Assembly: GCA_946482045.1 (NCBI GenBank)
Contig: CAMLPZ010000084.1
Coordinates: forward strand, 1 to 14,463
Direction: 5' to 3'
DNA: 14,463 nucleotides
Origin: an uncultured Asticcacaulis sp.
GTDB taxonomy: Bacteria > Pseudomonadota > Alphaproteobacteria > Caulobacterales > Caulobacteraceae
The position numbers and the translations under genes were made by a program. A model generated the notes under the pieces. It was not told the origin of the DNA. It ran no database searches and was given only the letters and a program-made list of their open reading frames with translations. This document shows, one piece after another, positions 13,581 to 13,769 of this stretch (positions are counted from its first letter, which is position 1; every line of letters starts with the position of its first letter).

Positions 13581-13662
13581 ATGACGGTCTTTCGTCTGTC
13601 CGGCGGGCGTTTTGCCGCACGGGAACAAGGCTTTGAAGCCGAAGACTAGACTCCGTCACCGT

Positions 13663-13677
13663 TTAACGAAAGGTTAA
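13663..13677 (-). promoter_or_regulatory. ccrM: CtrA-type box of the ccrM promoter
   Basis: TTAACGAAAGGTTAA is an exact TTAA-N7-TTAA, the full binding pattern of the master cell-cycle regulator CtrA. It lies 83 bp upstream of the ccrM ATG, a fitting place for the -35 region. In Caulobacter, ccrM is known to be switched on by CtrA. I see no other full CtrA box in the window. Confidence 0.8.
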
Positions 13678-13690
13678 GCTTGACTCGCTG

Positions 13691-13706
13691 CGAATCGATC
13701 GATTCG
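13691..13706. repeat. Perfect 16-bp palindrome with two GANTC sites
   Basis: CGAATCGATCGATTCG equals its own reverse complement. It contains GAATC (13692-13696) and GATTC (13701-13705) placed symmetrically, 14 bases upstream of the CtrA box. It is a likely dimer-binding site whose occupancy could depend on methylation. Confidence 0.8.
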
Positions 13707-13718
13707 TTTTTGTTGTGG

Positions 13719-13738
13719 GTGAGTCTTTTCGGACTCAC
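13719..13738. repeat. Inverted repeat with two GANTC sites
   Basis: GTGAGTC (13719-13725), six bases, GACTCAC (13732-13738): a perfect 7-bp inverted repeat. Each arm holds one GANTC. On the plus strand TTTT follows, but no plus-strand gene ends here; on the minus strand, after the VOC gene, no T-run follows. A terminator role is therefore unlikely. Confidence 0.7.
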
Positions 13739-13769
13739 TTTTGGATTCGTTTTGTTCCGCAGAAGGCCT

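Follow-up and report, generated by a model that had tools for sequence, protein, structure and literature searches.

The gene for the GANTC adenine methyltransferase CcrM in the Asticcacaulis DNA analysed here (the window, a stretch of 14,463 bp) is preceded by seven GANTC sites packed into 100 bp. Sequence comparisons support the view that this cluster stands out in the sampled genome, is shared throughout the genus and belongs to a promoter of the CtrA type. We propose, with a probability of roughly 0.45, that it is a cis-acting methylation-state array, likely read by GcrA, which would negatively gate CtrA-driven ccrM transcription. This proposal builds on direct observations, namely the sites and their density, the conservation of the GANTC bases, the spacing, the CtrA-type box and the presence of GcrA in 24 of 25 genomes. 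We numbered the sites 1–7 from the end far from ccrM. Conservation was counted over 26 arrays, i.e. the window plus 25 Asticcacaulis genomes (nine of them via the loci L001–L009). The features are as follows.

12453..13580, minus strand: ccrM, GANTC adenine methyltransferase of 375 aa, start ATG at 13580
13644..13650, minus strand: predicted -10 element TCTAGTC, placed by eye from its distance to the CtrA-type box; shares bases with site 7
13649..13653: GANTC site 7 (GAGTC), overlapping the predicted -10 region; in 23 of 26 arrays, with G, T or C as N
13663..13677: CtrA-type box TTAA-N7-TTAA, reading TTAACCTTTCGTTAA on the strand of ccrM; in the window all 8 consensus bases are present
13682..13686: GANTC site 6 (GAGTC); in 20 of 26 arrays (18 GAGTC, 1 GAATC, 1 GATTC)
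13692..13696: GANTC site 5 (GATTC); in 26 of 26 arrays
13701..13705: GANTC site 4 (GAATC); a GANTC between sites 3 and 5 in 19 of 26 arrays
13721..13725: GANTC site 3 (GACTC); in 26 of 26 arrays
13732..13736: GANTC site 2 (GAGTC); in 24 of 26 arrays
13744..13748: GANTC site 1 (GAATC on the ccrM strand); in 23 of 26 arrays, shifted by one base in 3 of them
13721..13748, minus strand: distal half of the array, sites 1–3 with A- or T-tracts between them (linkers counted over 26 arrays)
13749..13757, minus strand: 5' edge of the conserved block (GAACAAAAC); GAACAAA in 23 of 26 arrays

The ccrM product combines an N6_N4_Mtase domain (Pfam PF01555) with a C-terminal RAMA domain (PF18755) and contains the DPPY motif, as ADPPYNLQL. 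It matches the NCBIfam CcrM model NF050803 with 623.8 bits (E 6.6e-188), which is under the model's own cut-off of 830. In 23 of the 25 Asticcacaulis genomes, CcrM aligned in one piece at 85–99% identity; in the remaining two the match was split into two pieces. The window protein shares 99% identity with its counterpart in genome G017 and 84–93% with those of the other 24. We rank G017 as a sister species of the window's Asticcacaulis, since the two share 88–92% DNA identity along the window. The sequence-only reading had placed GANTC at 13649, 13682, 13692, 13701, 13721, 13732 and 13744; all seven were confirmed, and all lie upstream of ccrM, which starts with the minus-strand ATG at 13580.

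The window as a whole is depleted in GANTC, with 29 sites against 62.9 ± 7.9 in dinucleotide shuffles, and 7 of the 29 fall in the 100 bp of the array. The density had originally been judged against an expected site every 280 bp. This figure holds by composition (one per 288 bp at 61.9% GC, computed from the first 400 kb of G017), but the actual background is much sparser, with one site per 698 bp in G017 (1,718 sites in 1.2 Mb, about 24% of the genome, sampled non-randomly as 60 stretches, 8 of which are contiguous around ccrM). Within this sample, the orthologous array ranks top with 7 sites per 100 bp. No other place exceeds 4, a count reached twice, and 3 sites occur at 22 places. For seven palindromes of the same composition the maximum was 5 per 100 bp, although six of them were 1.5 to 2.1 times commoner than GANTC. 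The claim of unusual density thus survived the count, ranking first in the sister genome (24% sampled). In a blastn search with the window array against nine genomes, the best place was ccrM in all nine, with only short matches elsewhere (E ≥0.5).

The sample also contained other GANTC-rich places. At L236:4352-4419, four GANTC lie within 68 bp in a region that looks promoter-like by eye and has TTAA motifs. An interspersed repeat of about 150 bp occurs in at least seven copies in the 1.2 Mb (L222, L231, L235, L243, L258, L146 and L148). It has inverted ends resembling CAGGCT(A/G)CTGACAAA, carries three GANTC in 45 bp in the four copies read, and looks like a small non-autonomous mobile element.

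A GANTC array stands before ccrM in all 26 Asticcacaulis, so the cluster also withstood the comparison with close relatives. Its peak density ranges from 4 to 7 GANTC per 100 bp, 20 of the 26 arrays have seven or eight sites, and 15 carry an additional GANTC in the leader, which the window lacks. The mean majority fraction was 0.889 for the GANTC core columns and 0.755 for the linkers, a difference not reached in any of 20,000 permutations (relatedness uncorrected). At sites 4, 6 and 7, the N varies between genomes while GANTC is retained (site 4, for example, is GAATC, GATTC, GAGTC or GACTC), and methylatability therefore looks to be under selection. At sites 1–3 the N is constant wherever GANTC is retained, so a recognition more specific than GANTC may act there. 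Compared with L107, L108 (G025) has GANTT in place of GANTC at three sites of the array and leader, a difference that may be biological or may stem from misassembly at methylated positions.

Only one of the nine loci L001–L009, namely L001, gave blastn matches past 13757; in the other eight genomes the alignment with the window stops at the array edge or within ccrM. By eye, the end of rnhB stands upstream of the block in several other of these loci. The window and G017 themselves diverge just past the block, where the window has a gene of the glyoxalase family and G017 has different DNA. This glyoxalase/bleomycin-resistance-like gene (13770–14144) lies between rnhB and the array and is missing at this place in G017. 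Elsewhere in the window, three tandem DsbA-like genes of the thioredoxin fold (Thioredoxin_4) stand beside smc at 8105–10083.

The array adjoins a box matching TTAA-N7-TTAA, which we take to be the CtrA consensus and after which we named it. At least 7 of its 8 bases were found in all 26 Asticcacaulis, choosing the best match in each region. It stands just upstream of the predicted -10 element, and by this match the ccrM promoter of the window qualifies as a candidate CtrA-activated promoter. A second, sigma-70 promoter within the array was considered and dropped: there was no promoter-like match and, by eye, no TTGAC in register.

The six upstream sites are about one helical turn apart. Their commonest offsets from the CtrA-type box are -71, -59, -48, -29, -20 and -10, and site 7 lies at +23 or +24. 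In the window, the best period is 10.2 bp (R 0.86), and compared with random placement the periodicity has p 0.019 at 10.5 bp and 0.012 when maximised over 10.0–11.1 bp. In four genomes (L117–L120), an extra 11 bp between sites 3 and 5 shifts the three distal sites by one turn. The insertion keeps the helical register, and in three of the four genomes the added turn contains a GANTC. The linkers differ between the two halves of the array: AAA or TTT occurs in 51 of 51 distal linkers as against 19 of 57 proximal ones. The tract between sites 2 and 3 is found in either orientation, from which we infer that the distal tracts suit a role in DNA shape.

We also examined the class at large. Leaving G004 aside, 100 class genomes gave a match at E ≤ 1e-60, and 69 of these form the set (41 of 142 genomes lacked a match at this threshold and are outside it); 67 of the 69 upstream regions could be analysed, L166 and L176 not being located. 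These 67 regions contain 238 GANTC, compared with 41–73 for seven control palindromes of matched kind. This corresponds to a site every 93 bp on average, compared with every 858 bp in the flanking DNA, mostly coding, of 27 of the loci; GANTC is absent in 9 of the 67. Weighing against this enrichment as support, a passage of PMC7987155 states that alphaproteobacterial intergenic DNA is at least 1.5-fold enriched in GANTC. A TTGAC followed by GANTC 6–12 or 17–21 bp downstream was found in 49 of 67 regions, and both spacings in 32, while the controls gave 0–10 and 0 (the best TTGAC was chosen in each case, likewise for controls). The GANTC offsets from TTGAC peak at -15, +8/+9 and +19. Among the non-core spacings, 27 of 124 measure 9–12 bp (expected 17.3 ± 3.4, p 0.004), and the sites are periodic near 9.5–10 bp (p 0.001 over 9.8–11.2 bp against uniform placement). 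They fit 10.5 bp poorly (R 0.127), which we count against a phased array. Other Caulobacteraceae have at most 2 GANTC per 100 bp before ccrM in 20 of 22 cases, and 44 of the 49 loci L032–L080, from Rhodobacteraceae-type genera (presumably Rhodobacterales), have at least 3. TTGAC with GANTC at about +8 and +19, often also at -15, recurs in L032–L080, where it is near-uniform, and in L151–L219.

GcrA is our candidate for the reader of the array. It passed the Pfam cut-off in 24 of the 25 Asticcacaulis genomes and none was found in G012, in a family search that is not fully specific as it also matched Sulfolobus among 14 control genomes. In the 69 class genomes, for which assembly completeness is not stated, 54 pass the cut-off and 14 have no match. 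Eight of these 14 carry 4–7 GANTC before ccrM (G091, G160, G084, G112, G124, G138, G163 and G103), and 7 of the 9 genomes without GANTC there do encode GcrA. As a predictor of ccrM arrays, the presence of GcrA showed no correlation across these class genomes. In G091, G160, G084 and G103, which gave no GcrA match, 5–7 GANTC stand before ccrM. The GcrA motif YGAKTCK is matched at least once in the region in 26 of 26 Asticcacaulis. In the window it fits 3 of the 7 sites, not clearly above the quarter or so of GANTC that would match with random flanks. According to parts of PMC3667746, GcrA is dimeric, binds GANTC in a methylation-dependent manner and covers more than 40 nt on the fully methylated ctrA P1 promoter, where the authors suggest that it could hold back RNA polymerase.

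The scheme we derive from this extends to methylation in vivo, to the reader protein, to the sign of regulation and to cooperativity, all of which we infer. Six GANTC would lie on roughly one face of the helix just upstream of the CtrA box, the seventh overlapping the predicted -10, and CcrM would methylate each of them. A passing fork would leave all sites hemimethylated together, and they would regain full methylation only once there is sufficient active CcrM. The number of fully methylated sites may be read by a protein that binds GANTC, for which GcrA, a dimeric regulator dependent on methylation, is the most likely candidate; this protein would adjust CtrA-driven transcription of ccrM. 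The sign would most likely be negative: the promoter would be damped while fully methylated, in G1 or once CcrM has done its work, and released when hemimethylated. ccrM would then have to await replication of its own locus before firing with CtrA, and CcrM would shut itself off. In Caulobacter, CtrA is active in G1, when the DNA is fully methylated, and again late in the cycle, when it is hemimethylated. We argue for the negative sign from this need, since CtrA is active in both phases and methylation tells them apart. It is a guess, because GcrA is described as an activator (in part of PMC7987155).

Two functions suggested by the sequence-only reading fared less well. A sink for CcrM fails on numbers: with a GANTC every 698 bp, about 7,000 sites are expected in a genome of 5.0 Mb, and the seven of the array make up about 0.1% of these targets. 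Grading by fork passage is unlikely, since one fork would hemimethylate all seven sites nearly at once; any grading would come from remethylation by CcrM. In a more tentative extension, the phased array may be a cooperative counter of local CcrM activity, with a general use of self-targeting ccrM arrays in Alphaproteobacteria. After the simultaneous drop to hemimethylation, remethylation of several sites on the same face would let GcrA or another reader spread, giving a steep, switch-like change in ccrM.

The main rival of the negative-sign reading is an array that activates: full methylation would load GcrA and recruit RNA polymerase, and CcrM would boost its own gene in a positive feedback. 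Phased upstream placement is typical of activators, the GANTC positions across the class lie around -35/-10, and the class TTGAC plus GANTC ccrM promoters suggest positive feedback. This version also agrees with excerpts of PMC3667746, in which GcrA recruits RNA polymerase to methylated promoters, and of PMC7987155, where ccrM is predicted to be among the core targets of GcrA across orders. We nevertheless consider it less likely. Unless another repressor acts, such an array would favour ccrM expression during G1, a phase of high CtrA and fully methylated DNA. It is further opposed by the lack of correlation between arrays and GcrA across the class and by the link of the hemimethylated state to higher expression of the Caulobacter ccrM promoter, reported in a section of the review PMC10073500. 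Another protein could also bind here (a MucR-like protein, CcrM, CtrA spreading from its box, a nucleoid protein or an unknown repressor), needing a sequence that contains GANTC and perhaps shielding the sites. The constant N at sites 1–3, a perfect GTGAGTC/GACTCAC dyad in the window and the A/T tracts in every distal linker would suit such a binder. So would excerpts of PMC5172544, according to which Caulobacter MucR shields some GANTC from CcrM and a Caulobacter promoter with three GANTC over two CtrA boxes is hypomethylated. It would not explain that GANTC is retained despite N changes at sites 4, 6 and 7, or that the enrichment recurs class-wide with varied flanks, and we regard it as unlikely.

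Two further explanations seem very improbable. Pairs of GANTC could form the stems of hairpins or terminators that point away from ccrM, with runs of T following them on the plus strand. There is indeed one terminator-like site at 13690–13707 on the plus strand (0.6 expected in shuffles), and the single-strand DNA fold has a z of -2.2, with 5 of 200 shuffles as stable. But GANTC is itself palindromic, so any two sites make near-perfect dyads. Sites 4 and 5 are GATTC/GATTC with a central mismatch in four genomes, and seven genomes have no site between 3 and 5; the second hairpin is therefore not conserved, though site 5 is. Finally, all 26 arrays come from one genus, as they would if chance and shared ancestry had produced a density without function. 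That account is hard to reconcile with eight of nine blastn matches stopping at the array edge or within ccrM, with site bases being kept better than linkers and with an enrichment that recurs across the class.

Methylation-controlled alphaproteobacterial promoters are already known, and the Asticcacaulis array would add a new form. In Brevundimonas relatives, GANTC likewise occurs with a CtrA-type box, just 3' of it by eye. In E. coli, Dam/GATC switches such as pap also have several methylation sites in one promoter that are read by a binding protein; in Asticcacaulis, unlike there, the sites are GANTC, the enzyme is CcrM and the setting is the cell cycle, with nothing to suggest phase variation. 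The Caulobacter crescentus ccrM promoter shares the gene and the CtrA-type box but has two GANTC (as given in part of PMC10073500), compared with the seven or eight of most Asticcacaulis arrays, which lie mostly upstream of the CtrA box and are phased. The two sites of this review, together with the low densities in other Caulobacteraceae, bear out the earlier remark that the Caulobacter promoter has a few such sites. The GcrA-dependent promoters mipZ and ctrA P1 have GANTC as well, as two juxtaposed sites and one site, respectively (passages of PMC3667746), whereas Asticcacaulis, where GcrA is nearly universal, has six upstream of the CtrA box. The class-wide GcrA control treated in PMC7987155 agrees with our 67 regions in having GANTC before ccrM across orders. 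A section of that paper gives site counts without a fixed register, while the Asticcacaulis set is denser and placed differently.

Several CcrM sites in one cell-cycle promoter are also found at other genes. Promoters of ctrA in Caulobacterales have up to six GANTC in 300 bp (part of PMC8116508) and the Agrobacterium repABC promoter has three (part of PMC11514494), and in these portions of the two papers no phasing or array is described. That GANTC-rich promoters extend beyond ccrM, as at ctrA, counts against the array model. Among the passages covered, PMC2877005 counted GANTC before cell-cycle genes and drew no conclusion, and PMC3973325 and PMC3708114 included A. excentricus in conservation screens. 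In the literature searched by title and abstract opening, with few subscription papers and main texts rather than supplements, we found no description of the Asticcacaulis ccrM array.

The level of CcrM must stay within limits through the cell cycle, and to our knowledge its control is only partly explained. A conserved, dense and phased set of CcrM targets in the promoter of ccrM itself provides a concrete element, and related layouts occur across Alphaproteobacteria. As judged by comparison of genomes, the array is real, conserved and more general than the sequence-only reading supposed. It also appears to qualify the loss of ccrM as a GANTC/GcrA target published for Brevundimonas and relatives, "specifically the freshwater genera" (PMC7987155, in a portion of text where Asticcacaulis is unnamed): Asticcacaulis looks like an exception to this loss in freshwater Caulobacterales. 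If the array does count local CcrM activity, Alphaproteobacteria would hold the methylase at a just-sufficient level through self-targeting ccrM arrays, and the Asticcacaulis form would be one built onto a CtrA promoter.
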